A stretch of DNA of 27,946 nt from a virus: the IMG/VR virus record IMGVR_UViG_3300037584_005313, positions 1 to 27,946 of that record. The stretch is one strand, 5' to 3'. Made by a program: the position numbers and the translations under genes. The number at the start of each line of letters is the position of its first letter. Position 1 is the first letter of the stretch. This document shows, one piece after another, positions 1 through 24,256 of the stretch. Below the pieces are notes generated by a model. It was not told the DNA's origin and did no database searches. It saw only the letters and a program-made list of their open reading frames with translations.

Positions 1-240
1 GCTCTAAGCCGTCTAATCGCTTACAGAAACAATGAATCACTTGAGAGGTTCAACCCAAAACCACCAAGTTATGAAATGGATGGTGGTGGTGTATTTAGAA
101 CCGCCGAATATGACGATTTCATAGAATCACTTGGCTACGATGATAGAATGGTTGATGCGATTGGCGAATGGAATGATTTAGAGGATTGGCAACGAGAGGC
201 CGCTATCGAGGCTGGATATTCTGAGGATGATTGGGTATGA
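1..240 (+). CDS. C-terminal part of an unrecognised acidic protein (cut by window edge)
   Basis: An open frame runs from the first base to a TGA at 238-240, giving 79 residues with no start in view. The peptide is acidic and aromatic (for example FIESLGYDD and a terminal SEDDWV). Its composition matches the bodies of the tagged proteins that follow. The stop overlaps the next start as ATGA at 237-240, the same coupling used through the whole array, so it is probably the last visible piece of another array member. I do not recognise the domain. Whether it carries the N-terminal tag cannot be seen. Confidence 0.75.
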   Translation, partial: ALSRLIAYRNNESLERFNPKPPSYEMDGGGVFRTAEYDDFIESLGYDDRMVDAIGEWNDLEDWQREAAIEAGYSEDDWV

Positions 241-2892: not shown

Positions 2893-2898
2893 GTTAAG
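2890..2898 (+). promoter_or_regulatory. Possible TATA-like element before the gene at 2917
   Basis: TTAAGTTAA lies 19-27 bases before ATG 2917 in one of the few gaps of the array. The gene at 2917 has no Shine-Dalgarno sequence just upstream, unlike its neighbours, so a leaderless archaeal-type start is plausible. The element is short and overlaps the stop of the preceding gene. Weak support. Confidence 0.25.
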
Positions 2899-2916
2899 CA
2901 ATGCCCTGCGTCAAAC

Positions 2917-3315
2917 ATGCCCCAATTTAGAGTAGAACTTTCACAGACTATTTTCTGGACTAAAACAGTCGGAGCGTATGATGAAGAAGAAGCAATAGAG
3001 ATGGCAAAAGCAGATGCTTCTTTAGAAGACGCTAATGATGGTAGCCAATTACGGGTTGATGAAGTTGAAATGCTCGATGACCCCTCTTTCTTTTTAAGAT
3101 CTGATGAGAAGTCGGATGAAAAAATGGCTCCGCTACTTGCAGGTGCAGGCAGGGTTGCTATGGGTGCGGCCAAGAATCCTAAAGTTCAAAGTGCAGTGGG
3201 TAATGCTGTTGGCGGGATGATTGCAGGCAAAAAAGACCCCAACAATCCAAATCAAGCCAACAAAGGACATAAAATGGCAGTGGATACTGTTTGGCAATTG
3301 ATGAAAAACGAATGA
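2917..3315 (+). CDS. Small protein with glycine/alanine segment and a C-terminal copy of the tag
   Basis: The 132-residue protein starts at ATG 2917, 24 bases after the previous stop. Residues 1-60 look like a compact alpha/beta domain (PQFRVELSQTIFW, then a helix EEEAIEMAKAD). Residues ~70-105 form a Gly/Ala-rich possibly amphipathic or membrane-associating stretch (GAGRVAMGAAKNP, GNAVGGMIAGKK). The last 13 residues, MAVDTVWQLMKNE, match the array tag but sit at the C-terminus. An internal ATG at 3274 with AAAGGA (3262-3267) in front could also start a tag-only peptide. This may be a genuine C-terminal tag, or the stranded head of the next gene. No enzymatic motif is visible. Confidence 0.75.
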   Translation: MPQFRVELSQTIFWTKTVGAYDEEEAIEMAKADASLEDANDGSQLRVDEVEMLDDPSFFLRSDEKSDEKMAPLLAGAGRVAMGAAKNPKVQSAVGNAVGGMIAGKKDPNNPNQANKGHKMAVDTVWQLMKNE

Positions 3316-3325
3316 GGGTTTTGCA

Positions 3326-4696
3326 TTGGGTCGCCGTATTGACTTTACTGGGATTCCTATTGCGAAACCCCGCAATATGTTCTTTGGCGACTTGTTGGAG
3401 GAAATACCGAGGACAGAAGAGGAAAGTCTTCAAGCCGATATGGGCGGGGATGCGTGTTGCATCAATGCGAAAAATAAGTGGATTGAGGGATTGCGTGATA
3501 TTTTTGGTGAACAACCCAGTGATGTGCATGATGAAATTTACCAAATGTATGAAGAAATGTCATGCGAAGAATTCCGTGATGCCATTGAACAATTTGCAGG
3601 GGGCCGACCGGGTAGATTTTATAATTCAAATGTGAAAAGAGGTGGGGGATTAGGCCCAACCTCCGAACATTACCTCGGCAAGCGCATTCTTGAAGAATGG
3701 GATATGTGTGAAGCAAAATCCACTTTTGGAGATAACATGGACTTTTATGCCTCCGAGGATGCGTTTGAAGCGGCTTGGGATCACCTCGCTAAAGGTTTTC
3801 AAGACCTAATCGACCAAGGCGAGGTTCATTTGCATGGCATTCGATTCATGGATCCAGATGGCTTTGATGACGATACAAATACTGCTTTAATTGATTACGC
3901 TTTAGGTAAAAGAGGGCGATACGGCGATGAGCGTTTCAAATACAACATAATGCTACCCACCGATCTCGCATTAGATCTCCTTGGAAAACCAACGGGAATA
4001 AAAAATCGTATGCGGGCATCTCAAGACCGACACTGGCGACAGCGTAAAGAAAAGTTTGACGATGCGGTTGATACAATGATGATGGCTTTTGGTTCTGGCC
4101 GTTGGGACAGGGGCGGCAAACCTGAACTGCCCTTTTATCCAATGATAATAGGTTCGAATTTAGGCGGTCGATCCGGTTTGCCAAATGAATCAAAAAACAT
4201 ACCTCAACGAGAGATTTATGCAAATTATCGCGACCAAATGTTGCCAGTAGTCCAACAAGCCTTAGAATCAACGACTGATAAATTGGTTCCCGTAGCAGGT
4301 TCGATGATAAACACTTTGCGACGGCCAAACCTTTCTTTGGGCGTGGTTCCCGGTTTTGAAGGTAATGAATTAGGAATGGCCGCTAAATTACTCGCTATGC
4401 AAGATGTTGGAGGATTAAGCGGCAGTGCGACTCCTGAAGCAACATCTATGAATCGGAAAATGGCTCGGTATTTAGGGCCAAGGGCTGAATCGTTTGTTGA
4501 ACCAGACCGGCGGGGTTTCTCTTCTAATCACGCCGAATTCAAATTGAAGGACACCGAACCGCTTGTCACTGGCAATTTGCGTAGCACCAAGGACATTAAC
4601 CAATTGGCCCGCACCATTACCAGCAATCCCGATTATTTCAAAGACGAAGAGAACGCCCCTTGGCTTCAAGCGTTTGGAGAGAGGTGGCAGGCATGA
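3326..4696 (+). CDS. Unrecognised 456-residue protein with an internal tag-like motif
   Basis: The reading frame opens after a stop at 3302-3304 and the only start-like codon near its head is TTG 3326, behind GAGGG (3314-3318). ATG 3377 is an alternative. The protein is acidic, with a Cys pair near residue 45 (DACCINAKNKW) and the helix-rich EIYQMYEEMSCEEF. DAFEAAWDHLAKG at residues 145-157 resembles the array tag and especially the start of the protein at 21408 (F-x-A-A-W-x4-K-G). The C-terminal half (KYNIMLPTDLALDLLGKP; PVAGSMINTLRRPNL) is not recognised. Upstream, in the preceding frame, lies an orphan tag followed at once by a stop, so this gene may have lost its original tagged start to a +1 shift. 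Confidence 0.75.
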   Translation: MGRRIDFTGIPIAKPRNMFFGDLLEEIPRTEEESLQADMGGDACCINAKNKWIEGLRDIFGEQPSDVHDEIYQMYEEMSCEEFRDAIEQFAGGRPGRFYNSNVKRGGGLGPTSEHYLGKRILEEWDMCEAKSTFGDNMDFYASEDAFEAAWDHLAKGFQDLIDQGEVHLHGIRFMDPDGFDDDTNTALIDYALGKRGRYGDERFKYNIMLPTDLALDLLGKPTGIKNRMRASQDRHWRQRKEKFDDAVDTMMMAFGSGRWDRGGKPELPFYPMIIGSNLGGRSGLPNESKNIPQREIYANYRDQMLPVVQQALESTTDKLVPVAGSMINTLRRPNLSLGVVPGFEGNELGMAAKLLAMQDVGGLSGSATPEATSMNRKMARYLGPRAESFVEPDRRGFSSNHAEFKLKDTEPLVTGNLRSTKDINQLARTITSNPDYFKDEENAPWLQAFGERWQA

Positions 4697-5205
4697 GCGC
4701 ATTTGATACCGCTTGGGCTTTGATGAAAATGCCCTATTTTCACGGCACATCATCAAAATACGACGAGGACATCAAAGAACAAGGCATTGATCCAAGCAAC
4801 AACATGAGTTTGCTTGAACAACATTCTCTTGATGACTTAAACGCATGGCTTGAAGAACATGATTTAGATTTTGATGATTTTGATCCCGATGAAGATTGGA
4901 TTTGGTTTTCTAAGGATAATCCAAGAGCGACTATGGCTTATGCCCTTTCTTCAAATAATAACGCTGGCGCGAGTCGGCATTCCCCAATTATTTATGAAGT
5001 GGATGATGATATTGATGTTGTTGAGGACTTGATGAATGACGGTAATTTTAGAGGTTCTTATCGGACAAACCAAGAAATTAGTCCAAGCAAAATAAAGGAA
5101 TGGCTTCGATTTAGGCCGATGGAACACCTTGAGTCGTATGACAAATATAGAGATGAATTGCGAGAAGCGATAAAGCAAAAAGCAAAATTGGAGGGGTATG
5201 AATGA
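4693..5205 (+). CDS. Tagged ADP-ribosyltransferase-fold protein
   Basis: The 170-residue protein starts at ATG 4693 (ATGA overlap) with the tag MSAFDTAWALMKMP. H17-G-T-S follows at once, then a helix ending in EQGIDP. W69-I-W-F-S-K-D-N-P-R-A-T-M-A-Y83 gives the second ART-type strand and helix, where a tyrosine often stacks on nicotinamide. EISPSKIKEW gives the I-x-P-x-x-I strand. It is the best ART-like candidate of the array. A strongly acidic insert (EEHDLDFDDFDPDEDW, residues ~54-69) separates the first two motifs. Target and activity are unknown; the related KptA/Tpt1 fold, which removes 2'-phosphates from RNA with NAD, is an alternative to mono-ADP-ribosylation. Confidence 0.87.
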   Translation: MSAFDTAWALMKMPYFHGTSSKYDEDIKEQGIDPSNNMSLLEQHSLDDLNAWLEEHDLDFDDFDPDEDWIWFSKDNPRATMAYALSSNNNAGASRHSPIIYEVDDDIDVVEDLMNDGNFRGSYRTNQEISPSKIKEWLRFRPMEHLESYDKYRDELREAIKQKAKLEGYE

Positions 5206-5591
5206 CCGCATTTGATACCGCTTGGGAATTGATGAAGTCCATTGATGATGATTCAAATGATGATGAATTTATTGACAATTCAAAATTTAATAACCCCGTC
5301 GCCCAAATTGTAGAAGAACTTTCGATGGGCCTTGGGGCAGATGTTTTGGAATGCTTTTCATGCGGCCATACGGGTGCAACAACAGATTTTGTAGGTTGGC
5401 ATCAAGGGCGTGGGCGTAAATGTCCGAACTGTGGATCGTATTCAGTCCATGACCCCGAAGGGCCAGCCGTAGGTGATAACTACAAGCACAAGGATGAAAC
5501 GCCTGAACAAGAAACAGCGAGGCGCAATGCGTATTATGAGCGCATTCATTGGGAAAACGAAGAAAGAAAGAAGCCGGAGGGAGGACAATGA
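5202..5591 (+). CDS. Tagged zinc-ribbon protein
   Basis: The 129-residue protein starts at ATG 5202 (ATGA overlap, with GGAGGGG about six bases upstream). The tag MTAFDTAWELMK is followed by an acidic linker (SIDDDSNDDEF) and a helix AQIVEELSMGLG. Cysteines C51-x2-C54 and C74-x2-C77 form a classic two-knuckle zinc ribbon (ECFSCGHTG and RKCPNCGS). Such ribbons bind nucleic acid or mediate protein contacts in transcription proteins. The C-terminal tail is charged and predicted helical (ETARRNAYYERIHWENEERK). With no catalytic residues visible, it could be a transcription-modifying or DNA-binding cargo protein. Confidence 0.85.
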   Translation: MTAFDTAWELMKSIDDDSNDDEFIDNSKFNNPVAQIVEELSMGLGADVLECFSCGHTGATTDFVGWHQGRGRKCPNCGSYSVHDPEGPAVGDNYKHKDETPEQETARRNAYYERIHWENEERKKPEGGQ

Positions 5592-6013
5592 CCGCCTTCG
5601 ACCGAGCGTGGGCTTTGCTCAAAAACGAATGGAAGTTATTTCCTAAAAAAGACAATGAAATGAACCAAATTGACGGAGAAAGACCCGCAGGGTATAGCAT
5701 GGTGGATTTGAAAAATTTAGGGGCAACGACTTCTCATGTGAATTTACCATTCGTTGAACAACTTGGCAGTGAACAAGAAATCGCAGAAAAGGTTCTGGAA
5801 ACTACTGCACACGAAGATACACATGAGGCTATGGCGAAAATAGGTGAATTTTATGACAATCCAGCGAAAGACGAGTATGCACCGCACATAACCGAAGCAA
5901 TCATGGCAACAAGAGATAAAGGACAATTCGCCATGCCTGTCACTCAATTGGCTCGGATGTTGATGCGTTTTCATCCACAAGTAAGAAGGGGGTCTTATGA
6001 TGACCGCCTTTGA
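5588..6013 (+). CDS. Tagged small HExxH metallopeptidase candidate
   Basis: The 141-residue protein starts at ATG 5588, overlapping the upstream TGA, with GGAGGGAGG directly before it. The tag MTAFDRAWALLKNEW is the first in the array to have R at position 6. H75-E-D-T-H79 lies in a helix (KVLETTAHEDTHEAMAKIG), and E103 in HITEAIMA, 24 residues further, could complete a gluzincin site. At this length it is a minimal zincin domain. It has little resemblance to the peptidase-like gene at 1921 outside the motif, so the array seems to hold two distinct HExxH proteins. A short HExxH can occur by chance, but its placement in a helix with a downstream Glu supports the call. Confidence 0.84.
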   Translation: MTAFDRAWALLKNEWKLFPKKDNEMNQIDGERPAGYSMVDLKNLGATTSHVNLPFVEQLGSEQEIAEKVLETTAHEDTHEAMAKIGEFYDNPAKDEYAPHITEAIMATRDKGQFAMPVTQLARMLMRFHPQVRRGSYDDRL

Positions 6014-6695
6014 CCGAGCATGGGATTTGATAAAAATGCCTTTTGTCAATCGAGGGTTAAAGGCGGATAAATTGTATCAAGGTAGAAGACATGGGGAAAA
6101 AGACACTGGCTTTTGGACTCCCCATAAAGACAAAGCGGTTGCATACGCTCTTTTCGGTCGAAGAGATGATTACGATGATGAACCTTGGGTCGATCCTAAT
6201 GTTCACATTCCCGAATTGTATTCAGTTAATGCGCCTCAAGAAAGAATAAACTTGCCATTGGATATGGATTATGTTGGTCTTGGAGATGCTTCGGGCGCGG
6301 TGGATCGAAGAAGGGTCGCTTTTGAAGACAAAGAAAACATACTCCCCTCGTTCAATCCAGTTAAAATGCCAAATGAAGAAATGGCTCGGATTATCGAAAG
6401 AATTGTAACACGAAACAAAAACGATGATGGAGATTTTATGGCAGGCGGCGAAATCCCTAAAAAAGAATTTGAACGCATATTTGACATGAAAGACGCTTTT
6501 AGAAATTGGGAGGGGATGTATGTTGATAACGATTACAAAGAGGACATGGAGGATTCTGAATTGTATGACTCTCTTTCAATACAATATGACGAAGGGAATG
6601 AAATAGATTGGGATTCGCTTGCCACTACGCTCGGCAATGTTAAAGGCGGGGATTTGAGGCCATTCATTTCTCGTTTGCGGAGGGGAGATGAATGA
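6000..6695 (+). CDS. Tagged protein with possible ART-like N-terminal domain
   Basis: ATG occurs at 5997 and 6000. The second gives the exact tag MTAFDRAWDLIKMP and the better spacing from AAGGGGG (5986-5992). The frame overlaps the previous gene by up to 17 bases. The protein has 231 residues. KLYQGRRHGEKDTGFWTPHKDKAVAYALFG (described in parts: KLYQG, then GFWTPHKDKAVAYA) resembles the first and second motifs of ADP-ribosyltransferase-like folds, with Gln in place of the usual His or Arg. ELYSVNAPQERINL may be the following strand. The C-terminal ~120 residues are acidic and helical (EEMARIIERIVTRN) and not recognised. ART membership is weaker here than for 237, 1374 and 4693. Confidence 0.84.
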   Translation: MTAFDRAWDLIKMPFVNRGLKADKLYQGRRHGEKDTGFWTPHKDKAVAYALFGRRDDYDDEPWVDPNVHIPELYSVNAPQERINLPLDMDYVGLGDASGAVDRRRVAFEDKENILPSFNPVKMPNEEMARIIERIVTRNKNDDGDFMAGGEIPKKEFERIFDMKDAFRNWEGMYVDNDYKEDMEDSELYDSLSIQYDEGNEIDWDSLATTLGNVKGGDLRPFISRLRRGDE

Positions 6696-7243
6696 CCGCC
6701 TTCGACCGAGCATGGGCTTTGGTGAAGATGCCTATTGTTCCCGGCTCATTGTATTCAACTGAACCCCGCCAAGATGTATCACAGAAGCCCAATCGTTCAT
6801 GGAGAGCGTTATTTCAAGATCCTGAAACAAATGAAATTGAACCTATGCTCATTGATTACATTGAGCGATTAAATATGTTTGGTGATAAAATGCGGTCTTA
6901 TAAAGGTCAAATAGGCGAAGGAATAGAACGAGGCAAATTGAGTTACTACGGTGATGATGATAGGTTCGTTAATGATGATGGAGAATTGTATTCACCAGAA
7001 CCCGACCACCGCAAGTCAATAACAAGTATAGGTTGGGTAGGGGATAATATCGCATATCCCGATTGGACTGAAACAAGAGAGGGGTTAAGGGGGAGGGGTT
7101 ATGCCCCTGCCCTCTATGATGCGATTGCATATTTGATGCGTGAAAATCAAAACACCCGCTTGTATCCTTCAACTGAACAAATTCAATCAGCCAAAAATAT
7201 GTGGAGAAATAATGAAACATGGCCTGTGAGGGATGACCTATGA
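6692..7243 (+). CDS. Tagged GNAT-family acetyltransferase
   Basis: The 183-residue protein starts at ATG 6692 (ATGA overlap, GGAGGGGAG upstream) with the tag MTAFDRAWALVKMP. The C-terminal half holds a GNAT core: strand ITSIGWVGDNIAY, then REGLRGRGYAPALYDAIAYL with the R-G-R-G-Y-A acetyl-CoA loop, then RLYPSTEQIQSAKNMWRNN. The same pattern is found at 823, so the two are paralogues sharing tag and body. The residues between tag and core (RSWRALFQDPETNEIEPML) are unassigned but may supply the first strands of the fold. Acetylation target unknown. Confidence 0.87.
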   Translation: MTAFDRAWALVKMPIVPGSLYSTEPRQDVSQKPNRSWRALFQDPETNEIEPMLIDYIERLNMFGDKMRSYKGQIGEGIERGKLSYYGDDDRFVNDDGELYSPEPDHRKSITSIGWVGDNIAYPDWTETREGLRGRGYAPALYDAIAYLMRENQNTRLYPSTEQIQSAKNMWRNNETWPVRDDL

Positions 7244-7659
7244 CCGCCTTTGAACGAGCATGGAATCTGTTGAAAATGCACACAGGGCATCGCCGTTTCT
7301 TCTCTAAAAAGGAGATACAAGAGATTGCCGAGATGAACAGACATTTGGCTTCAATGAATGATGATGGGCCGCTTGACCCAGACCCAAGCGTAAATTTTCC
7401 TTCTCAATGCAAACAATGTCAAAATGAAATCAACAACATTGTTGAAGGCATTCCGAATCATTGTAGCCGTTGCATTCATCCTTTTGTAGATGAGCGAATA
7501 ACTGATGCAATGGAGATGGCAGGTTTATTCGGAGATGGTAAGCCATTTAATTTACAAGACGCAATACGGCAAGACAAAAACGAAATCAACCCTTTTGATG
7601 GTTCAGCAACCGAAGTGGATTTTAGGGCGTATGAAGAAAGGATGCGTGATTTTGAATGA
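7240..7659 (+). CDS. Tagged small zinc-finger protein
   Basis: The 139-residue protein starts at ATG 7240 (ATGA overlap) with the tag MTAFERAWNLLKMH. A basic helix follows (RRFFSKKEIQEIAEMNRHL). C57-x2-C60 and C75-x2-C78 form a four-cysteine zinc site (QCKQCQ and HCSRCIHPF), similar to the zinc-binding knuckles of DksA/TraR-type or ribbon proteins. The rest is acidic (GDGKPFNLQDAIRQDKNE). No catalytic motif is present. Its tag DNA is identical over 24 bases to that of the next gene at 7656. Confidence 0.84.
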   Translation: MTAFERAWNLLKMHTGHRRFFSKKEIQEIAEMNRHLASMNDDGPLDPDPSVNFPSQCKQCQNEINNIVEGIPNHCSRCIHPFVDERITDAMEMAGLFGDGKPFNLQDAIRQDKNEINPFDGSATEVDFRAYEERMRDFE

Positions 7660-8135
7660 CCGCCTTTGAACGAGCATGGGATGTGTTGAAAATGCCAGCG
7701 CGTGATAGAAGGTATGCTGTGACTAATGAGGATGTCGAGCGAATCCAAGCCTTAACTGCTCAAGGCATGAGCCAAGCGGGGATTGCTCGATTGTTAAATG
7801 AAGAAGGCAAGCCAGTGAGCGTCGGCATAGTCCATTATTGGGCCAATGAAGCATCACGGTTAAAACAACGAGAAAAGAACTCCAAGCGAAGGTATGAACC
7901 CGGTTCTGTTGAAAACGCAATGCGGATAGAGAGAGATCAACAAAAGCGAAAAGAAAATTGGGAGGCCGACCCAGATATGAAATTGCGCCATGCAATTCAA
8001 TCAGCAATTGGTGAAACGCGCTCAAATAGAAAAACGGTTGCGGGAATGTCTATGGAGGATGCGGAAAACAAAATCCGTAGTAAAGAATTGACACGGCCAA
8101 ATGCCAAAATACCCGAAAAGGAGGATGGCCGATGA
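7656..8135 (+). CDS. Tagged helix-turn-helix DNA-binding protein
   Basis: The 159-residue protein starts at ATG 7656 (ATGA overlap) with the tag MTAFERAWDVLKMP. Residues ~24-68 form an HTH of resolvase/homeodomain-like type: VERIQALTAQGMSQAGIARL, then NEEGKPVSVGIVHYWAN as the recognition region. The remainder is basic and helical (REKNSKRRYEP; RDQQKRKENW) with a possible second small domain (HAIQSAIGETRSNRKTV). This is a credible sequence-specific DNA-binding protein, possibly a regulator of host or early viral genes if it is delivered with the genome. No catalytic serine or DDE residues are seen, so a recombinase is unlikely. Confidence 0.86.
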   Translation: MTAFERAWDVLKMPARDRRYAVTNEDVERIQALTAQGMSQAGIARLLNEEGKPVSVGIVHYWANEASRLKQREKNSKRRYEPGSVENAMRIERDQQKRKENWEADPDMKLRHAIQSAIGETRSNRKTVAGMSMEDAENKIRSKELTRPNAKIPEKEDGR

Positions 8136-8701
8136 CCGCATTTGACCGAGCGTGGGATGTGGTGAAAGCCCCGCTTTATGATTGGGAGTCGTATGATCCA
8201 AGAACAAATACGGTTGAATGGGATATGCCGATTACGGAGGAAATAGAACAAAATGAATTTAACCATTTATATCCAGACATAATGCGAACACCTTTACAGG
8301 GTTCACATGAAAATGCCAACTATGGGGGCATGGGTGAAACCTTTTGGGTTTCTAAAGACAATATGGCAAGAGGTTCAGCCCAAACCAATTATGACACTGG
8401 CATGATTCGTATTCATCATTTTGAAGTCGCTACTCCAAAAAGAGGTCAAGGTAATGCTGAAAAATACTTGAGAGAGATGATTGAGGAATTGTCAAACCGA
8501 TTAGAGGATGAAGGGCTTGAACCTCATGCTCATGCAACAAGAGCGATTGATGACTCAAAAGAATTTTGGAATAAAATGGTTGATAGGGGGGCGTTAAACA
8601 GTGCATCAGAAAGAGCAAATGTCCGAGTGTCTCCTGATGGTGAGTATTTCAAAACAAGAATTGGTAGTGATGAAATGAAACCTGTGTGGTGGTCTGAATG
8701 A
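8132..8701 (+). CDS. Tagged GNAT-like acetyltransferase
   Basis: The 189-residue protein starts at ATG 8132 (ATGA overlap, AAAAGGAGG upstream) with the tag MTAFDRAWDVVKAP. The core is IRIHHFEVATPKRGQGNAEKYLREMIEEL, described as strand IRIHHFEVA and the acetyl-CoA loop K-R-G-Q-G-N-A with its helix. After it comes HAHATRAIDDSKEFWNKM, the late GNAT strand and helix. It is only distantly like the other two GNATs of the array (823, 6692), so it was probably captured separately. Substrate unknown. The first 90 residues after the tag (FNHLYPDIMRTPLQGSHENA) are not assigned. Confidence 0.86.
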   Translation: MTAFDRAWDVVKAPLYDWESYDPRTNTVEWDMPITEEIEQNEFNHLYPDIMRTPLQGSHENANYGGMGETFWVSKDNMARGSAQTNYDTGMIRIHHFEVATPKRGQGNAEKYLREMIEELSNRLEDEGLEPHAHATRAIDDSKEFWNKMVDRGALNSASERANVRVSPDGEYFKTRIGSDEMKPVWWSE

Positions 8702-9930
8702 CCGCCTTTGACCGAGCATGGCGCATTCTTAAAATGGGCCAGCATTCTTCACACCAAATCGCCCGTTATCCTATTGAGAACAAGGATGATGCAATTTCCT
8801 ATTTGCATTGGTTGGAAAATTCGCCTTATGGGTATCATTACGATGATGATCCAGCAGAAGGAATGGTTGATGCCGAACTTGGTGGTTTGCCTTGGCCTGA
8901 TGGTTTGGGTGAACTGATGGGAAAACGACATAAAGAGATGTGGCAACAAATCAACCCTTGGGAGATTTTAGAGCAAGGAGATATTGAAAAGGCATCATTT
9001 GATGAACAGGCTTACAATAATTTCAAACGGCTAATGGCTAAAAATCCAGATGTTGAAGATGGTTTTGAAGAGGGTGGTGTCCGTTTGCTCGATAACGGAG
9101 ATTTTGTTGATCTTAGCGACGGTTCAAGGTATCGCTACAATGAAGAAACAGAAGACGAAGAATACATTGGTAAAGTGCCAGTCGAAATCGGCAGGGGAAT
9201 AGAACATAAAGTCTATTCAATCCCTCAAACCCAAATGAGAGAGGGTGCTTATGTTGCCAAAGTGCCTTTGTCGCGAGATGGCCGACCAGACCGTGTTAAT
9301 CGGAATGAAGTATATGACGGCCCAGAAGGTGTCACCCGTTCACCAATCGAAGCATATTGGAGTAAAGTATTGGGCCGTTCTCAACCAGTATTGCCTTATT
9401 CTCTTTTCAACTCAAAAGGTTCTTTGGATTTAGTGCAACGGGATATGCGAGAGTATAACCCTTACATTGAGCCGATGTCATTACAAATGGCGCATTTGCT
9501 TGGGCTTGAAGATGTTCCTTCAGATGCCGAGGACTTCTTAGAAGAGTATGATGAAGTGCTTGAGGACACTGGCGAACCACCTAAATTAGATACATTTGGG
9601 GGATTGGTGGGGTATGGGGATTCTTTTGGTGATGAATTAAACGACCGGTATGCGGGCAATGTATCAGAAGAAGGGTTGATATTTGATTATGGTTCTAAAA
9701 CGCCATTTGTAGAGGATACAAGAGGCGGCATGATACCTAAAGAACAAATCGAGCGCATTCTTCAAGATGCAATACATGAGCAAAAGAATGTGCCAAAACG
9801 CTATTTCGGTTATCAATCGGATCTCGACCAAACAATTCGGCAGTTAATCTCCGAATTAGAAGAATCATCTAAGAAGGGCCGTTTTATTGGTTCGTCAATA
9901 TCATTCCCTGAAATCCGTCGAGATATGTAA
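8698..9930 (+). CDS. Tagged, degenerate protein-kinase-like protein
   Basis: The 410-residue protein starts at ATG 8698 (ATGA overlap) with the tag MTAFDRAWRILKMG, and ends the array. Several kinase-fold signals appear in order: a glycine-rich loop candidate I164-G-R-G-I-E-H-K-V-Y, a VAIK-type lysine K188 in AYVAKVPL, a catalytic-loop candidate D316-R-Y-A-G-N321 with the usual five-residue D-to-N spacing, and D330-Y-G as the DFG equivalent. The short N-to-D distance and divergent loop suggest a reduced viral kinase or a pseudokinase. Residues 15-150 form an unassigned acidic helical domain. T7 gp0.7 is a known precedent for phage kinases acting on host transcription and RNA-processing proteins. 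The kinase call is inference from motif order only. Confidence 0.85.
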   Translation: MTAFDRAWRILKMGQHSSHQIARYPIENKDDAISYLHWLENSPYGYHYDDDPAEGMVDAELGGLPWPDGLGELMGKRHKEMWQQINPWEILEQGDIEKASFDEQAYNNFKRLMAKNPDVEDGFEEGGVRLLDNGDFVDLSDGSRYRYNEETEDEEYIGKVPVEIGRGIEHKVYSIPQTQMREGAYVAKVPLSRDGRPDRVNRNEVYDGPEGVTRSPIEAYWSKVLGRSQPVLPYSLFNSKGSLDLVQRDMREYNPYIEPMSLQMAHLLGLEDVPSDAEDFLEEYDEVLEDTGEPPKLDTFGGLVGYGDSFGDELNDRYAGNVSEEGLIFDYGSKTPFVEDTRGGMIPKEQIERILQDAIHEQKNVPKRYFGYQSDLDQTIRQLISELEESSKKGRFIGSSISFPEIRRDM

Positions 9931-10407: not shown

Positions 10408-11733
10408 ATGTCCGGCGAACATGCTTTTGATGAAGCATGGGAAATTGCTAAGGCAAAAACCAAAGCGGCCTATGATAAAGAGTTATGGAATAGGGCAAAT
10501 GCAAGAAACATAGCCGATGTGTTCATAGAAAATTATGGTGAGAATCAAAAACCTCTCCGTGATGATGTTGCCGCAATGATAGAATATGCCGGTGCTGGTG
10601 GTTCAGAAGAAGGATACCGCAGGGCAGGCATAGAAACTCTTTCGTCTGTTGATAATTGGAAAGAGGCTTTGCTTGCTAATGCGGCGTTTAATACAGATAT
10701 GGATACTGAACATACGGTTCTTGATTTGATGGGCGAAGAAGAAGGAATGCCTCATGCTCGCGCTAAACGCTATGCTGATTTGGCCGATGGCAAACACATT
10801 CTTTACCACGCTTCACCGTTTTGTCAAGAATTGTCTGGTGCGCGTTCATCCAAAAAGAAAAATCAAGTAGCGTCAATGCAACACATGGGCGGAATACAAG
10901 ATACGGCTAATGAGTTAAGAAGGCTTGTTGGCAAAGACAATGTAAGCGTAGTAGTAGAGCAATCGCCCAATGTCAAAAAACCATTCTTAAGCCCAAAAGA
11001 CGAAAATTTGGCGGCTCAAAGGAGAGGCGAATGGAATGCACCGGATAAGTGGTTTAGAACCGCAATGGGTATGCCTAATTTGGCCGCCGCCGACTTTGGC
11101 GCACCTCAAACCCGACGGAGAGCATTCTTTGGAACTGGTTGGGATTCACCAAAACCAACAACCAAAAAACGCTCGATTGATGACCTTATGCCTTGGTTGA
11201 AAGACGATTGGGAGGATGCAAGCGAGGCGAGAGCCGACCGAATCAATTTGTTATCGTCTAAAGGCCAATTAGGTTCAGAGGCTCGCGACTTTTTAATGAA
11301 TACACCAACCCTTGCTGATGGAGGAACATGGATGCCGGGTAATCGTGGTGCGACTTGGCCTGAAGGATTGACAAGGGATAAAAAAACATGGGCGGAACCG
11401 GTAAATGTCGGTGGTAGAATGGTTCGGCCCGAAGGCGGCAAAATCTCTCGCTCTTTGTATCACTTGAAGCCTTTAGATGAAACGGGATGGTCGCAAACAC
11501 ATCACCCACTGGCTCTTACGGATTCTCGATTTATGACTGTTCCCGAACGCCTTTTGTATAATACGATGGATCCTCGTCGCGATATGTCGATGGTTGGCGA
11601 CATGAATAATCCTCAAGACAAGAACATTGGCACTATGCTTGGCAATGTTGTTGCCCCCGTCGTCACAGAAGCAGTCGGCAATCAAATTTTGAATCGCTTA
11701 AATAACAGCCTACGCCGATGGACTGGTCGATGA
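10408..11733 (+). CDS. Tagged DNA (cytosine-5) methyltransferase
   Basis: The 441-residue protein starts at ATG 10408 with a divergent tag, HAFDEAWEIAKAKTK (residues 5-19). C5-methyltransferase motifs follow in order: motif I Y-A-G-A-G-G (60-65, S-adenosylmethionine binding), motif IV SPFCQELSGA with catalytic C139, motif VI Glu E184 (VVVEQSPNV in place of the usual ENV), motif VIII Q234-T-R-R-R, a target-recognition region of ~150 residues, a motif IX-like FMTVPERLLYNTMD, and motif X G412-N-V-V-A-P. PFCQ replaces the usual PPCQ. The enzyme should methylate cytosine in a short DNA sequence, most likely to protect viral DNA from restriction or to mark it. No restriction endonuclease gene is adjacent, so it is an orphan methyltransferase. 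Confidence 0.9.
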   Translation: MSGEHAFDEAWEIAKAKTKAAYDKELWNRANARNIADVFIENYGENQKPLRDDVAAMIEYAGAGGSEEGYRRAGIETLSSVDNWKEALLANAAFNTDMDTEHTVLDLMGEEEGMPHARAKRYADLADGKHILYHASPFCQELSGARSSKKKNQVASMQHMGGIQDTANELRRLVGKDNVSVVVEQSPNVKKPFLSPKDENLAAQRRGEWNAPDKWFRTAMGMPNLAAADFGAPQTRRRAFFGTGWDSPKPTTKKRSIDDLMPWLKDDWEDASEARADRINLLSSKGQLGSEARDFLMNTPTLADGGTWMPGNRGATWPEGLTRDKKTWAEPVNVGGRMVRPEGGKISRSLYHLKPLDETGWSQTHHPLALTDSRFMTVPERLLYNTMDPRRDMSMVGDMNNPQDKNIGTMLGNVVAPVVTEAVGNQILNRLNNSLRRWTGR

Positions 11734-11861: not shown

Positions 11862-12335
11862 TCATGTTTGATGGCGCATGTGTGCTTGAGTAGAACCAGA
11901 TTCGCTAATGTAATCGTTAATCAAATCATTTAACAAATATGAATTAGGATGCAAGGGATCTCCATTTGCTTGAGTCCATTGTTGAATCCAAGAAACATCG
12001 GATGAAAATATACGGACAAAGACAGTATTATGATGCTGTTGTATTTGATTGCTCGACCATGTGCTTTCAGATTGTAATGTTTGTTCCGCCGTCGCCATCA
12101 ATTGAACCCACGACGCTTCTTCGGTTGAAAGACTTGATGATGGGTAAAGGGGGTGTTGCATGTAAGAGAGTAAAGCAATTGCTGTTTCTTGGTCGAAATC
12201 ACGCGCTCTTGAATGTTCGCCTGCTTCTCTTTCGACCCACGCAGTTAAAGCAGTAGGGTTATCCGTTGAAGCGGATAATGCGGCCTTATAAGAGCGCATA
12301 ATTGAGGTTGCTGTTCGCATATTTGGGGTCGGCAT
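11862..12335 (-). CDS. Unrecognised leftward 157-residue protein
   Basis: This is the only convincing minus-strand gene in the window. The protein starts at ATG 12335 (minus strand) about 27 bases from a TATA-like sequence at 12357-12368. It is helical and polar (RTATSIMRSYKAALSAS; FDQETAIALLSYMQ; STEEASWVQLMATAEQTLQ), with several tryptophans and no cysteine cluster, membrane segment or known motif. Opposite strand and lone position suggest a regulator or an independently expressed early or lysogeny-type gene, but this is context only. Overlapping plus-strand frames are shorter and less protein-like. Confidence 0.6.
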   Translation of the reverse strand: MPTPNMRTATSIMRSYKAALSASTDNPTALTAWVEREAGEHSRARDFDQETAIALLSYMQHPLYPSSSLSTEEASWVQLMATAEQTLQSESTWSSNQIQQHHNTVFVRIFSSDVSWIQQWTQANGDPLHPNSYLLNDLINDYISESGSTQAHMRHQT

Positions 12336-12391: not shown

Positions 12392-12559
12392 ATGACAGGT
12401 GTTATGGGGCATCATGTATCAGTCGTAATGCGAGACGATCTTTTCGCAAAAATGGAAGAGGAAAGAGGTAGAGAATCAAAATCTTCTTTTGTTAATCACA
12501 TAATCGACTTATATTTTAATACGAAGAAACTGAAAAAGGTGAATGAAGATGAACAGTGA
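12392..12559 (+). CDS. Ribbon-helix-helix (CopG/Arc-type) DNA-binding protein
   Basis: The 55-residue protein begins at ATG 12392; ATG 12404 is an alternative. HHVSVVMRDDLFAKMEEERG matches the RHH pattern of a DNA-contacting beta strand (V-S-V-x-M) followed by helix 1. Then SKSSFVNHIIDLYF gives the S-x-F-V-x-x-x-I-x-x-Y/F second helix. RHH proteins act as dimers that insert paired strands into the major groove, commonly repressing their own promoter. It is the first gene of the rightward late unit and sits beside a divergent promoter, so control of that promoter is the likely role. It overlaps the next gene by 17 bases. Confidence 0.82.
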   Translation: MTGVMGHHVSVVMRDDLFAKMEEERGRESKSSFVNHIIDLYFNTKKLKKVNEDEQ

Positions 12560-13013
12560 AGAAAAACAACAAATGGGGATGTATCAAATTCCTCCCCATC
12601 TAAGCGGAGACAATAACAGAATTGATGTTAATTTAATTGCCATGCTATTATGGCAGGCATTATTAGTTGCGGTGGGAGTGACAATTTCACATTTAGGATG
12701 GTATTTGCCAGACGCAACACCGGCTCAAATGGGTCTTCAATATGGGTTAATTACTTTTGGTTTTCTATGCGCTTCAATGGTTTTGTTTCATGTAGGCGGC
12801 GTAAGAGATTCTTTGGCAATGCGGGCCGAATTCACTCGCGAAAATCAAAACGAAAAGTGGATGCGTTCTCAAATGCGGCTACAACAACGCCGCGCCCAAA
12901 AACAACAGTATTGGGCTAATGGGGGCCAAAAGCCTCCACAGTCATTCGCTCAATTTGGATACATACCTAATGAGCAACAACAAACAAATGAAGAAAGCAA
13001 AAAGCAAGGGTGA
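12543..13013 (+). CDS. Two-helix membrane protein with basic/Gln-rich tail
   Basis: The 156-residue protein starts at ATG 12543 (a second ATG follows at 12549). After a polar N-terminus come two hydrophobic segments, LIAMLLWQALLVAVGVTISH (roughly residues 31-50) and YGLITFGFLCASMVLFHVGG (roughly 65-85). The remaining half is soluble, basic and Gln-rich (RSQMRLQQRRAQKQQYW). Two-pass topology with a large positively charged tail suggests a membrane anchor that recruits other proteins or nucleic acid. It precedes another small membrane protein and a GTPase, so these may form one complex. No known family recognised. Confidence 0.8.
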   Translation: MKMNSEEKQQMGMYQIPPHLSGDNNRIDVNLIAMLLWQALLVAVGVTISHLGWYLPDATPAQMGLQYGLITFGFLCASMVLFHVGGVRDSLAMRAEFTRENQNEKWMRSQMRLQQRRAQKQQYWANGGQKPPQSFAQFGYIPNEQQQTNEESKKQG

Positions 13014-13020
13014 GGGTTAA

Positions 13021-13245
13021 ATGTGGCCTTTTACGACCCAAAACGAAAGGCAAGCCGAGGCTATGTCGCAAATACTTGCTGAAAACGCATATGACCGAAA
13101 AATGGAGAGGGTTGCTGGATGGGTTCGCACTTTTGTTGCCTTATTTGGAGGCATTGCGCTTACATTTGCAGTATTGATTGGATTGGAGGCATTAGGCGCA
13201 ACCCCCTCCGAAATATGGAGATGGATGAGAGATTTGGTTGGGTGA
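13021..13245 (+). CDS. Small single-pass membrane protein
   Basis: The 74-residue protein starts at ATG 13021 behind GGTGAGGG. A helical polar N-terminus (RQAEAMSQILAENAYDRKME) is followed by one hydrophobic stretch (RTFVALFGGIALTFAVLIGL, about residues 38-57) and a short amphipathic tail (SEIWRWMRDLVG). It lies between a two-helix membrane protein and a Ras-like GTPase with only a few bases between genes. It could be a membrane partner of the GTPase, a virion membrane-interacting protein or a holin; none can be chosen from sequence. Confidence 0.75.
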   Translation: MWPFTTQNERQAEAMSQILAENAYDRKMERVAGWVRTFVALFGGIALTFAVLIGLEALGATPSEIWRWMRDLVG

Positions 13246-13249
13246 ATGA

Positions 13250-13981
13250 ATGTCGGCCCTTGTAGCGGGCCACATGTTTATGGCTGGATTTTCAGCCGTT
13301 CATTCGCTCTACCGAATTTTAAAACCTTATCGCGTGGGCATTTACGGGCCGAGTATGACGGGAAAAACAACCCTCGACCAGTATTTGACAGTTCCCGGAG
13401 ATATAGACCCCATACCTGATGCTTTCCGCACGACACATGCCAAATCCTATGATGCGCTCGGTCACTCTATGCCAAAGGTTTCAAGAAAACAAATACGATG
13501 GCAAAGCGAGAAAAAGATTGTATCTACAACAGATATAGCGGGCCAGTCTCAATTTCGCAATATGTGGGTTGAAGATATGTTTGGGCGGAATGTAGAATTA
13601 GTGATTTACATGATAGACCACCGTTCATTGTCTTCATTACAATTTACTTTGGATTCTGTCTCTGGTTTCAATTACTTAATTGACAACATTACGAAAAAAT
13701 CAGTTACTAAACAAATCAGCCGACACGCAAAGCGTAAATCGAAAAAATATACGCCAAAAGTATTTTGTTTGATGATTAACAAAATGGATGTTTGGTGGGA
13801 TCCATTGGCAATTAAACTATTAGAACATAATTTGTTGCGTGAGCATCCAATTGCTTTACCGTATAGGGATGGCTTAAAGAGATTAAGAAAAGCAGGTATT
13901 CGTGCTGAAGTCTTGGCTGTATCGGCTCAACATGGCATCAATGTAGGGAAAGTATTTACCAATTTAATTGCCGACTTTTGA
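13250..13981 (+). CDS. Ras/Arf-like small GTPase
   Basis: The 243-residue protein starts at ATG 13250, four bases after the previous stop, with GGTGA upstream. It carries the GTPase signature in order: G1 G33-P-S-M-T-G-K-T40 (phosphate loop), G3 D95-I-A-G-Q99 with a Ras-type catalytic Gln, G4 N177-K-M-D180 (guanine specificity) and G5 V224-S-A. The region between G4 and G3 includes a hydrophobic strand VELVIYMIDH. The first ~24 residues (ALVAGHMFMAGFSAVHSLY) are hydrophobic enough to be a membrane-associating helix, in keeping with the two membrane proteins upstream. Archaeal small GTPases act as regulatory switches (MglA-like, Arf-like). A GTPase inside a viral late operon is unusual. Confidence 0.88.
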   Translation: MSALVAGHMFMAGFSAVHSLYRILKPYRVGIYGPSMTGKTTLDQYLTVPGDIDPIPDAFRTTHAKSYDALGHSMPKVSRKQIRWQSEKKIVSTTDIAGQSQFRNMWVEDMFGRNVELVIYMIDHRSLSSLQFTLDSVSGFNYLIDNITKKSVTKQISRHAKRKSKKYTPKVFCLMINKMDVWWDPLAIKLLEHNLLREHPIALPYRDGLKRLRKAGIRAEVLAVSAQHGINVGKVFTNLIADF

Positions 13982-14002: not shown

Positions 14003-14953
14003 ATGACAGTTATGGCAGGGTTGATGGCGTTTAACGGTTTCTTGGGAGGCGGCAATGTCTCTTTGAGTAATGTAACTGACGAACAATTACGGGCATTGTC
14101 GTTAAACACAGGCATTGCATTTGAATTGTTAAAGTCTCAACAACGGGCTGAAATGGCAAGTGCTGGTTCTCAAGGGTTAGATGATGAAGCAGTCATTCCG
14201 ACCGTCGAATTAAAATTAAAGTCAAATCCTAAAAACCCAAAAAAGGCTCGCAAAAAGAATATTAAAATACTGCGTAAAGCATTGCGGCCCCCAAATTATA
14301 ATCTTGGATTGTTCAAAATTTACAGATACAATGCCCCGCATGAGTGTGCTTGTTGCGGCGTTGATATTCGCAGATTTCTTGAAGGAGATAATGCCTATGC
14401 ACACATTGTAGATGAAAAAACTGGCCTTTCTTTAGCCGACATTTATTGGTTTAACGAGGACACTGGAAAGACGGTTAAGCCACATGCAAGAACACACGCT
14501 GATCATGGTGATGAAATGAACAGCACATATTGTCCCGCCCATTTACATATATTTCATACGCTAAGGTCATTGCTGGATGAACAAGAATTTTCCGAGGATG
14601 GCTTTGCTTCAAGAAAAGTAAGTAAAGGAACCAAATTTATGAAAGTCACCGGAATGGGGGCATTGACAAGAGGGTTCAAATCAACCGATAACAGAAGCAC
14701 TCCTGAATCTATTCTAAAATACGAACAATTTTTCAAAATGATTCACACCGATGCCGAACATAGCAAGGGCATTAAAATTATGCAATACGAAAACCCCATT
14801 AGCGGTATAGTTGATTTCGTCACAGTTTCATTCGATTTGAGGATTTTACAAACAGAACAAAATTTGATGCAAAGTAATTTTGTAGCAAATCAAAGTTTGA
14901 CCGCAAATCAAATGAATATGAACGAACTGCCCCAAACAGGGCAACAGCAATAA
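14003..14953 (+). CDS. Cys/His-rich zinc-binding protein, unrecognised
   Basis: The 316-residue protein starts at ATG 14003, nine bases after GGGGAGGG. The N-terminus has a glycine-rich hydrophobic stretch (MAGLMAFNGFLGGGNVSL), then a basic segment (NPKNPKKARKKNIKILRK). The middle contains a Cys/His cluster, HECACCGVDI and later THADHG and YCPAHLHIFH, which likely binds one or two zinc ions. The C-terminus is Gln/Asn-rich (NQSLTANQMNMNELPQ). It is a probable structural or assembly protein of the virion, judged from its place between the GTPase and other Gln-rich late proteins. An HNH-type nuclease was considered because of the Cys/His cluster, but the order of residues does not fit well. Confidence 0.82.
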   Translation: MTVMAGLMAFNGFLGGGNVSLSNVTDEQLRALSLNTGIAFELLKSQQRAEMASAGSQGLDDEAVIPTVELKLKSNPKNPKKARKKNIKILRKALRPPNYNLGLFKIYRYNAPHECACCGVDIRRFLEGDNAYAHIVDEKTGLSLADIYWFNEDTGKTVKPHARTHADHGDEMNSTYCPAHLHIFHTLRSLLDEQEFSEDGFASRKVSKGTKFMKVTGMGALTRGFKSTDNRSTPESILKYEQFFKMIHTDAEHSKGIKIMQYENPISGIVDFVTVSFDLRILQTEQNLMQSNFVANQSLTANQMNMNELPQTGQQQ

Positions 14954-14965
14954 TGAGTGATATAT

Positions 14966-15556
14966 ATGGGATGGTTTAGCAAGGATACAACACCGACGCA
15001 ACAATTCGGAACGCCGCAACAAACGCAAATGAATGGTTATAATGGTATGCAAGGTATGGGCGCAATGGGAATGATGCAACAACAACAAAACCCAATGATG
15101 CAACAAATGGCAAATGATCCGATTATTGCTTTAGCCCGTATGCTTGAATTACATGACCCAATGGCTGTGTTCTTGGCATCTCATAATTTGCCGACTCTTA
15201 TTGAATTGATGGGCGAGGTTGTCCGTCTTTCTTTGAAGGAGTTTCTAAGCCAAGCAACATTCACTTTAGACAAGGATACTGGTGCATTAACTCTCGATAC
15301 GGCTAAATTGCCTTCGCAACTTTCAACGCTTTCGCCAGAAAACCTTGCTTTGACAATGAATAGAGTCCAGCAATCGGCACAGATGACAATTCAACAGAAT
15401 GCTCAACAAAAACAAATGTTGCTCAATGCTCATCAAATGACAGGTGGAATGAATGGAACTCAACCCGGATTCTTCGGTAGTCTTTTAGGTTCGGCACTTG
15501 GTAATCAAATGCAAAACGGTAATGCGGCAAAATTAGGTGCAGGTTTGGTGCTTTAA
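14966..15556 (+). CDS. Met/Gln-rich late protein, unrecognised
   Basis: The 196-residue protein starts at ATG 14966 (GTG 14957 in the same frame is possible). The first 50 residues are a low-complexity Met/Gln/Gly segment (MQGMGAMGMMQQQQNPMM). A compact helical domain follows (DPIIALARMLELHDPMAVFL; TLIELMGEVVRLSLKEFL). The tail is Gln-rich, then Gly/Leu-rich (GFFGSLLGSALGN). Low-complexity heads of this sort suit virion or scaffold proteins that form multivalent contacts. Function unknown. Confidence 0.78.
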   Translation: MGWFSKDTTPTQQFGTPQQTQMNGYNGMQGMGAMGMMQQQQNPMMQQMANDPIIALARMLELHDPMAVFLASHNLPTLIELMGEVVRLSLKEFLSQATFTLDKDTGALTLDTAKLPSQLSTLSPENLALTMNRVQQSAQMTIQQNAQQKQMLLNAHQMTGGMNGTQPGFFGSLLGSALGNQMQNGNAAKLGAGLVL

Positions 15557-15557
15557 A

Positions 15558-15803
15558 ATGAGTGAAGAAAGAGAAGAAAACGGACAATTTAATCCATACG
15601 ACATGTCGGTTCAATTTATTTCACCAAACAAAATGTTGGTGGAATCGGCAACAATGATTTTTATTATTTCATTTTTCTTATGTTGCTTCACAGTTTTGGT
15701 GGCAAGAGGCAGTAGTATGGGTAGTAATGAGTTGCTCGCTGGTGTTTTTGGCTTGATGCTCACTTTTACAATTGCTGTTCGTCAATACGCATCCTTTCGG
15801 TAG
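15558..15803 (+). CDS. Small two-pass membrane protein
   Basis: The 81-residue protein starts at ATG 15558, one base after the upstream stop. Two hydrophobic helices are visible: MIFIISFFLCCFTVLVARG and LLAGVFGLMLTFTIAV, joined by a short Ser/Gly/Asn loop. The N-terminal 30 residues are charged and soluble. A two-helix protein of this size in a viral late operon could be a holin or a virion membrane component. There is no adjacent endolysin, so the holin idea is weak. Confidence 0.75.
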   Translation: MSEEREENGQFNPYDMSVQFISPNKMLVESATMIFIISFFLCCFTVLVARGSSMGSNELLAGVFGLMLTFTIAVRQYASFR

Positions 15804-16060: not shown

Positions 16061-16768
16061 GTGGGGGGTCGGCAGACGAGAAAGAATTGTTCGTTCTGCG
16101 GGCATCCTGATAGAGACACTTTAGAGGAAAACATCAATTCAGGTGTCTATTCCTCCGAGGAATTAGACCGTGAACAAGGTTGGGCGGAGGGAACAACTCA
16201 TCGACATATGAGGCGGCATTCAAGTGAATATCATAACAACAGCAATTCAAATTGCCCTTTATGCACTCACCCAGAAAGAAGCATCATAGAGGAATCTATT
16301 CTAAATCAAACAGCAGGCATTGATGACTTTGCCGAAGAACTGGATATTCCTTCAAGCCTAATTTCAACGCATATGAACAATCACCGAACAGCATTGATTC
16401 AAAAAGAGGTAAAGGTCGAAGTTATGCCCAAAGCAATCCGTTCAGCCCACGATTCATTAAATAGGATTGAATCAAACATGAACCGTTTAGACCGTTTATT
16501 TGTATTGGTTTTAGATAAATTAGAAAATGACATAGCCGATGAAGATGAGATTTTTGAATTGAAGGAATTAGATACTGCAATAAAATTGCATAAAGAAGTC
16601 CGTGAAACATTGAAGGATTTGGCCGTTTGGATGGAAAAGACCGAAAATGTGGATAAGCAACAATCCGTTTCAATCATTGAAGTGCTTCAACAAGTCTTTT
16701 CAGAAAAAGCACCTGAAGAATGGAGAGAAATGAGATCGGCACTGGCTAAAGCGGGGGTTCTTGAATGA
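16061..16768 (+). CDS. Tandem C2H2-like zinc/HTH protein, candidate small terminase or regulator
   Basis: GTG 16061 starts 235 residues. Two copies of a 55-residue unit lie in tandem: C10-x2-C13-H-P-x-R, 36 residues on H49-x3-H53, then C65-x2-C68-T-H-P-E-R, 36 residues on H104-x3-H108. Within each, a helix-turn-helix-like stretch (IDDFAEELDIPSSLISTHM in copy 2) separates the Cys pair from the His pair. This C..C-H-P-x-R...H-x3-H design occurs in phage DNA-binding proteins. The second half is a long helical, coiled-coil-like region (LDRLFVLVLDKLENDIADED; DTAIKLHKEVRETLKDLA). DNA binding plus an oligomerising helix is what a small terminase needs, but the large subunit lies 7.5 kb downstream. 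The role is inferred. Confidence 0.82.
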   Translation: MGGRQTRKNCSFCGHPDRDTLEENINSGVYSSEELDREQGWAEGTTHRHMRRHSSEYHNNSNSNCPLCTHPERSIIEESILNQTAGIDDFAEELDIPSSLISTHMNNHRTALIQKEVKVEVMPKAIRSAHDSLNRIESNMNRLDRLFVLVLDKLENDIADEDEIFELKELDTAIKLHKEVRETLKDLAVWMEKTENVDKQQSVSIIEVLQQVFSEKAPEEWREMRSALAKAGVLE

Positions 16769-20466: not shown

Positions 20467-21421
20467 CCTTACGCTAAAAGCCCGACTTGCCGATGCCGAC
20501 CCAAATACAATTGAAAAATATGGGGCTAAAGGCGTTGGTGTGATGGGGAGAATAATGCCGAGAAGTTTTTCAAATCGGCGTTTTGGCTCGCAGGCGGTCG
20601 ATACAGCCGAAGCAAGATACAATCAAGCCGCCAATAGCCGGTTAAGAAACAAGCAACAATTAAATCGCCAAAAATTACAACAAAGGCAAGCGGCGGGTAG
20701 CGGCCAAGTAGCAAATTTTGAGGCGCAAAAAACGCCTGTTGGCCGAGAAACCAAAGAAGAAATGTCAGATCGAGTCAATTTGGAAAACCAACAAAATGCA
20801 CTAAGAGTCGCAAATCAAACTTCAGGTGAAACAGCCCAAAAAACACCCGTTGTTCCTATGGGCCAACAATCTCCCGGCGCAAACGGTAGCACCGAGGTTC
20901 CCGACCAACAAACAACAGAAAATACGCTCGACGCAAATGGAAATATTATCGAAAGCACCCAGACGGTTTCAAATGAAGAACCAAAGCCCGAAGAAGAGGG
21001 TGTTGTCCCTCAAGTGCCTGAAGCACCTCAAGCACCTCAAGCACCGCAAGCACCGCAAGCACCAGCACCGCAAGCACCAGCACCGCAAAATCAAGGTATA
21101 GGTAGTCAAAATTTTTACTTGGGCGGAGGCGGCCAAGCACAGCAACAGCAACAGCAACAACAAATGACTCCAGAGCAACAAGCAAAAGCGGCTCAAGTCG
21201 CTAATGCAACACGACGAGCGAATACAAGCGGCGGTTTAGCAACAAATCCTTTGTTGGGCGTTGCGACAATGGGCCTTTCAAATATAGCAGGGGGGCTATA
21301 CAACGCATATCAAAGAAACCAAGGCAACAAACAACTTCAACAACTTTCAAAGATGTTGCTAATGCGTAAATCCATTGGCATGAGAAATACAACGGGGGCT
21401 TTGCGTCGTGGAAGAATTTGA
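20459..21421 (+). CDS. Low-complexity Gln/Ala/Pro-rich late protein
   Basis: The 320-residue protein starts at ATG 20459, overlapping the previous gene by 8 bases. Its N-terminus is basic and helical (NSRLRNKQQLNRQKLQQRQ). The middle is disordered, with (APQ)n repeats encoded by a 9-bp tandem repeat and a run of eight or so Gln encoded by CAGCAA units. The C-terminus is Gly/Ala-rich and hydrophobic (LGVATMGLSNIAGGLYNAY), then basic (MRKSIGMRNTTGALRRGRI). It looks like a scaffold or internal virion protein. The repeats make its length likely to vary between related genomes. Confidence 0.8.
   Translation: MNDLTLKARLADADPNTIEKYGAKGVGVMGRIMPRSFSNRRFGSQAVDTAEARYNQAANSRLRNKQQLNRQKLQQRQAAGSGQVANFEAQKTPVGRETKEEMSDRVNLENQQNALRVANQTSGETAQKTPVVPMGQQSPGANGSTEVPDQQTTENTLDANGNIIESTQTVSNEEPKPEEEGVVPQVPEAPQAPQAPQAPQAPAPQAPAPQNQGIGSQNFYLGGGGQAQQQQQQQQMTPEQQAKAAQVANATRRANTSGGLATNPLLGVATMGLSNIAGGLYNAYQRNQGNKQLQQLSKMLLMRKSIGMRNTTGALRRGRI
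21011..21085 (+). repeat. Imperfect 9-bp tandem repeat (CAAGCACCN) encoding Ala-Pro-Gln
   Basis: About eight units of CAAGCACC[GT], some shortened to GCACCG, run in frame and encode alternating APQ and AP. Slippage here would change protein length without a frameshift. Confidence 0.85.
21140..21163 (+). repeat. CAGCAA microsatellite encoding polyglutamine
   Basis: CAG and CAA codons alternate for 24 bases, then continue into further Gln-rich sequence. In frame within the gene at 20459. Confidence 0.8.
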
Positions 21422-24251: not shown

Positions 24252-24256
24252 TTATT

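Follow-up and report, generated by a model that had tools for sequence, protein, structure and literature searches.

In Haloferax, the small GTPase ArvA carries an N-terminal amphipathic helix, its deletion abolishes RNA-associated vesicle formation, and its operon includes a Zn-ribbon protein that has been proposed to act as a GAP (PMC10927574). The exit mechanism of most archaeal viruses is unknown (PMC4456609). Virus-encoded small GTPases are found in giant viruses of eukaryotes, as Ras/Rab-like genes (BFVD matches) annotated as eukaryotic-type Ras, Rab and Ran. Here we analysed a 27,946-base IMG/VR virus record, which in its full length we call the window, in which a small GTPase is encoded in a late operon directly behind two membrane proteins; unlike the giant-virus genes, this one belongs to the operon of a tailed virus and is universal there.

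All genes of the operon lie on the plus strand. The first (12404–12559), which did not figure in the original prediction for this locus, encodes a probable regulator, a ribbon-helix-helix-like protein of 51 aa (MGHHVSVVMRDDLFAKMEEERGRESKSSFVNHII...), and overlaps the next gene by 17 bases. It is followed by a 156-aa two-pass membrane protein with a Gln/Arg-rich C-terminal tail (12543–13013; TM segments at residues 31–49 and 69–87 by hydropathy), a 74-aa single-pass membrane protein (13021–13245; TM segment at 37–55) and the 243-aa GTPase (13250–13981), which has an Arf/Arl/Rag-like G domain and an N-terminal helix. These three genes each run from ATG to TGA in the same direction and lie 7 and 4 bases apart, so the original prediction had both the coordinates and the gaps of eight bases or fewer right, as it did the two-pass and single-pass membrane proteins just upstream of the GTPase. 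Downstream lie a putative zinc-binding protein of 316 aa (14003–14953; CxCCG ... CPxHLHxxH), the constant 3′ neighbour of the GTPase; a Met/Gln-rich protein of 199 aa (14957–15556) that is syntenic across all relatives compared; a small membrane protein (15537–15803, start probably at 15558) with one strong TM segment in the window and two in relatives; and, 5′ of the terminase, a 235-aa protein (16061–16768) whose sequence has two repeated motifs of zinc type and perhaps an HTH. From its syntenic position the last of these is a possible small terminase subunit, with HTH families matched by a distant homologue only. Hydropathy analysis places three small membrane proteins within one late module of the window. 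The marker of that module is the large terminase subunit (24248–25669; phrog_38, E 1.4e-73), and the tight co-directional synteny from the GTPase to the terminase bears out the earlier assignment to a late operon.

The ribbon-helix-helix-like call for the first gene rests on its motif, because the Pfam match is weak and comes from a single relative of the 51-aa protein, which reaches RHH_5 at E 0.021, below cut-off. In nearly all related loci, a short ORF closely similar to this gene lies just 5′ of that for the first membrane protein, and the presence of such a gene at the head of the operon suggests that the operon may be autoregulated. A 157-aa gene on the minus strand (11862–12335), the product of which has no Pfam match, diverges from the GTPase operon and is found in the same place in two relatives (L115, 11517–12029; L120, 9823–10341); the gap between this gene and the operon may contain a divergent promoter. 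In another relative (L155, 2109–2974), about 860 extra bases separate the GTPase gene from the 316-aa gene, an apparent insertion into an otherwise tight operon.

Since the sequence identity of the GTPase to MglA, Arf and Rab is below 20%, a tree with these families would not resolve, and we placed the protein by structure. In Pfam, the match to Ras sits exactly on the cut-off (21.6 bits, E 1.8e-4), and those to Roc, EF-Tu and Arf fall short of theirs. An AlphaFold2 model computed from 39 sequences (pLDDT 82.6, pTM 0.82) consists of a helix at residues 2–24 followed by the G domain, with low confidence at residues 1–5 and in part of the P-loop (37–41). At an E threshold of 0.001, Foldseek matched this model to 873 PDB chains (best E 2e-8), the matches listed being small GTPases. 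The nearest solved folds are those of the Arf/Arl proteins: VIA gave Z scores of 14.4 for Arl8b, 14.1 for Arl1 and 13.8 for Arf1, as compared to 13.3 for Loki RagO and 11.9 for Rab5, with Arl10B also among the leaders, the leading Arf/Arl rows at 14.4–13.1 and Rab at 11.9 or lower. In a PDB profile search, Arl8 and a GTP-binding protein (8oun, E 5.6e-6) are among the best matches. That 13250–13981 encodes a GTPase fold is practically certain; a chance ORF or an annotation artefact is ruled out by the fold match, the 88 distinct homologues and the dN/dS values given below. The predicted structure further indicates, with good confidence, that the protein belongs on the Arf/Arl/Rag side of the superfamily. 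The earlier designation 'Ras-like GTPase' holds as far as a small GTPase is concerned, but in predicted structure the protein is closest to Arf/Arl and Rag, not Ras.

The hallmarks of small GTPases are present, namely G1, the switch I Thr, DxxG, NKxD and a single small G domain. Invariance of the P-loop and G3 was scored in an alignment of 39 sequences, and the other motifs were counted over 88 distinct full-length homologues. In the P-loop GPSMTGKT (13346–13369), G33, G38, K39 and T40 are invariant, as are Asp95 and Gly98 of G3 (DIAGQ, 13532–13546), the Gln99 of which is variable. Both residues of the switch I RT pair (R60 and T61; Thr61 at 13430–13432) are invariant in 88/88 homologues, NKxD of G4 (NKMD in the window, 13778–13789) is likewise present in 88/88, and the stretch that follows the P-loop, up to and including switch I, varies unusually little. 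G5 (SAQ, 13922–13930) reads SAQ, SSQ or AAQ in one clade and mostly ATR, ATK or ATN in the other. Judged by these motifs, GTP binding by the viral protein is well supported. The position equivalent to Gln61, on the other hand, is Q in 56 homologues, E in 15, D in 14 and H in 3, and an IQ-TREE tree requires at least six changes of the Q state. Since the residue two positions before it is Gly in 62 homologues and Ala in 26, the Ras-type DIAGQ of the window, with Ala, is a minority form and the Arf-type DxGGQ is commoner. The G-motifs are thus intact in the window, DxAGQ included, as originally described, but DxAGQ is not conserved in the family; the accompanying statement that the protein 'should be an active switch' goes too far, given the repeated changes at the Gln61-equivalent. 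Ras-type hydrolysis across the family is not supported by the sequences and, because 32 of the 88 have D, E or H at this position, the protein possibly cycles in a manner unlike that of Arf.

The N-terminal helix (residues 2–24, 13253–13321) is hydrophobic to weakly amphipathic and, in the AlphaFold model, forms a candidate membrane-association segment. Its best 19-residue hydropathy of 1.2 lies below the TM threshold and its 18-residue hydrophobic moment is 0.46; in the model, a helix of this kind could plausibly touch the membrane peripherally. Residue 2 is Ser, and so the Gly2 required for myristoylation of Arf is absent, as it is from many Arl proteins. The C-terminus (...LIADF) has no Cys, and with that the CaaX lipidation signal of the Ras family is absent. 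Taking the model as it stands, we consider it reasonably probable that the GTPase associates with a membrane.

The comparison with described GTPases yields partial likeness in each case. The viral protein resembles Arf/Arl in having a helix N-terminal to the G domain and in the DxGGQ-type G3 that is common in the viral family. However, it is only ~16–19% identical to Arf/Arl, lacks Gly2, often has the Gln replaced (the window copy itself being DxAGQ), has an insertion before beta-5 (roughly residues 144–170) and is encoded in a viral late operon. Similarity to Rag/Gtr, including the Lokiarchaeal RagO, is seen in VIA (Z 12–13) and in weak Gtr1_RagA Pfam matches for 5 of 39 viral GTPases; unlike Rag/Gtr, the viral protein ends after the G domain, without a roadblock-type domain at the C-terminus. 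The roadblock family, to which the MglA partner MglB would lead, has no Pfam match among the neighbours of the viral GTPase, a weak negative given how far these neighbours have diverged. Among viral proteins, nearly all of the best 50 structural matches come from giant viruses of eukaryotes, and tblastn of the GTPase against 50,697 INPHARED records, which do not include the two reference magrovirus genomes and so make a weak test, returned no match; both results agree with the earlier statement that small GTPases are rare in tailed viruses.

The likeness to ArvA comprises the archaeal setting, the leading helix, a YGPxxxGKTTL P-loop and an operon with a zinc-type partner. Over the G domain, hhalign aligns ArvA with the viral GTPase at probability 96 (E 2.9e-9), a similarity of the kind expected between related G domains. 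In contrast to the viral D[ILVMF][AG]G, the 19 ArvA homologues that we gathered through OapB neighbours have DTPG at G3, and they match best with MMR_HSR1/Era/EngA-type families. Neither ArvB (PF09846, OapB, DUF2073) nor ArvC (DUF2072) has a Pfam match among the viral operon neighbours scanned. Despite the real profile similarity, the different G3 type and the different partners rule out membership of the viral protein in the ArvA family; by analogy, it may nevertheless work like ArvA without being a member. As for the zinc-type partner, the window copy of the 316-aa protein has no Pfam family and no match to a GAP family, and its fold has no clear match in the PDB (Foldseek best E 3.1; VIA best Z 4.4, for a winged-helix-like C-terminal part only). 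Lying directly 3′ of the GTPase gene, it is the natural candidate for a regulator or effector of the GTPase.

A profile search of IMG/VR with the GTPase recovered 54 loci. When loci were fetched via the first membrane protein, all 52 had the first and second membrane proteins, the GTPase and the 316-aa protein in this order, encoded on a single strand. When they were fetched via the 316-aa protein, the GTPase was upstream in 77 of 79, one of them a fragment at the contig end, and the remaining two contigs begin either inside the 316-aa gene or right where it starts. The original prediction named two findings that would refute it, absence of the GTPase from related viruses and its constant occurrence without the membrane genes, and neither was borne out. 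The GTPase is present in all 44 testable terminase loci: 21/21 in one clade (loci having at least 8.5 kb upstream) and 23/23 in the other (~10 kb upstream each), of which 12 were seen directly and the other 11, with the GTPase farther upstream, were matched by contig name from the GTPase-profile or 316-aa searches. The numbers 52, 77/79, 21/21 and 23/23 count loci rather than independent events, because several contigs are the same or near-identical.

Among relatives, the first membrane protein is 53–65% identical and the second, present in 52/52 loci, 55–73%. In the distant clade, the GTPase is ~36–38% identical to the window copy and both positions upstream of it are still occupied by membrane proteins, with sequences diverged almost beyond detection; the first membrane protein of the window is homologous to its distant-clade counterpart by hhalign (probability 94.6, E 6.9e-8). 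The three- or four-gene set is thus not peculiar to one contig. The GTPase is under strong purifying selection, with dN/dS of 0.014–0.048 in five pairs; two more pairs yielded no ratio because of saturated dS. Its constant place beside the terminase argues that it serves a late core function, and its presence in 21/21 and 23/23 terminase loci is what one would expect if this function were essential; that it is a core late gene is close to certain. The reading as an accessory gene is ruled out by the universal co-occurrence with the terminase and the membrane genes.

In a 96.6-kb relative, the genes past the terminase encode a portal, an S78 prohead protease and an SU10-type major capsid protein, and a Cpn60/TCP1-family chaperonin was found in 12 of the 16 related records searched, the chaperonin of L004 being annotated here as thermosome-like via an archaeal homologue at 50% identity. 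Thermosomes have been reported in clade 1 of a set of tailed viruses attributed to archaea of Marine Group II (PMC5332604). On these grounds the host is likely archaeal, probably a member of the Poseidoniales. The magroviruses, tailed viruses of Poseidoniales, are alike in being large marine contigs (up to 86–108 kb) with a thermosome as in clade 1 (PMC5332604), and beyond the thermosome the portal, S78 protease and SU10-type capsid protein of the relatives studied here count as further likeness. The GTPase is unmentioned in the surveyed literature on magroviruses and archaeal Caudoviricetes; Philosof 2017 and Prabhu 2025, which may hold a 'small GTP-binding protein' entry, lie outside that survey. 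A scan of genome contigs with two peptide patterns, a weak search, found no cellular relatives of the GTPase. The Arf-family matches in Woesearchaeota are long ORFs, mostly about 280–715 aa, and are probably translation-type and other large GTPases; they supplied no set of small GTPases for a tree.

Two membrane proteins that constantly adjoin the GTPase, taken together with its N-terminal helix, are our grounds for arguing a membrane step, and our preferred reading, held tentatively, is that the GTPase is a switch for a membrane-coupled late step. GTP binding would free or expose the N-terminal helix, and the GTP-bound protein would then be recruited to the host membrane beside the two small membrane proteins, which would act as its anchor or receptor, with the zinc protein as regulator (e.g. 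a GAP) or effector. Such a switch would organise a late membrane event, most likely the assembly of virions at the host membrane or their release through it. We infer a membrane-remodelling or egress role from the gene anatomy, and egress specifically strikes us as doubtful. Counting against a membrane switch are the sub-TM hydropathy and weak amphipathicity of the helix, the missing Gly2, the variable Gln and the lack of a GAP match among the searches above; moreover, the synteny of the GTPase and its neighbours reflects co-inheritance and does not imply interaction. As a whole, this picture would have an abundant family of archaeal tailed viruses assemble or leave the cell by means of an Arf-like GTPase that is recruited to the membrane, has membrane partners of its own and answers to a zinc regulator; we judge it rather unlikely on balance. 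If true, it would make switch-driven membrane remodelling a core module of Caudoviricetes. The universal late module of GTPase and membrane proteins provides a concrete three or four genes for studying how archaeal viruses exit. It would also add a viral branch to the Arf-like GTPases, and the nearest experimental archaeal analogue, ArvA, is one that drives membrane vesiculation.

The data separate a membrane switch poorly from the first three of the alternatives that follow. The GTPase shares its operon with the terminase and a zinc/HTH protein, and synteny is as tight downstream as upstream; together with the zinc protein and the possible small terminase subunit, it might act as a soluble checkpoint on the timing of head assembly or packaging, while the membrane proteins, though on the same transcript, do something separate. 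We think this fairly unlikely, since membrane genes still fill both positions in the clade in which their sequences are barely recognisable and since, to our knowledge, DNA packaging in other tailed viruses needs no GTPase of this sort. Small adjoining proteins with two and one TM segments in a late operon could also form a lysis module, in which both are holin-like permeabilisers and the GTPase is the timer that triggers them. There is room for such a module, as the way in which lytic viruses breach the membrane of archaea that have no cell wall is unknown (PMC4456609). Neither membrane protein, however, is similar to any holin family in Pfam and PHROG searches. Holins usually diverge fast, whereas the first membrane protein is unusually conserved at the identities given above, and we know of no GTPase that acts as timer for a holin; a lysis module is rather improbable in our estimate.

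The repeated replacement of the catalytic Gln and the unusual constancy of the region after the P-loop through switch I would also suit a structural or scaffold protein that binds nucleotide but hydrolyses little of it, its fold being maintained for contacts with partners and not for switching. Against this, none of the 88 homologues departs from the switch I Thr or from NKxD, G1 and the Asp and Gly of G3 are invariant in the 39-sequence alignment, and several active GTPases without the Gln use a residue of their GAP; we regard a scaffold as improbable. Finally, small GTPases are cellular regulators and as such open to tapping by viruses, be it by mimicry of a host small GTPase, for superinfection exclusion or as counter-defence. 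Host manipulation of this kind fits badly with a gene that is universal and syntenic in a late morphogenesis operon and not patchy, and the two-pattern scan, weak as it is, found no close cellular relative; we give it very little credence.

Outside the GTPase operon, 15 proteins of differing kinds, encoded at 231–9930, 10408–11733 and 21408–24251 of the window, share an N-terminal-proximal tag, (T)AFDxAWxLLKMP, that did not occur in residue shuffles of the window proteome. There are weak GNAT, HTH, zinc-ribbon and DNA-methyltransferase matches among the bodies of the tagged proteins. In relatives, seven tagged proteins are encoded in L115, two in L118 and two in L120, in the last case one with the tag near the N-terminus and one with it internal. 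The tag has the look of a signal for targeting or packaging, perhaps of proteins that travel inside the head; the capsid-targeting sequences of phage T4 offer a parallel.
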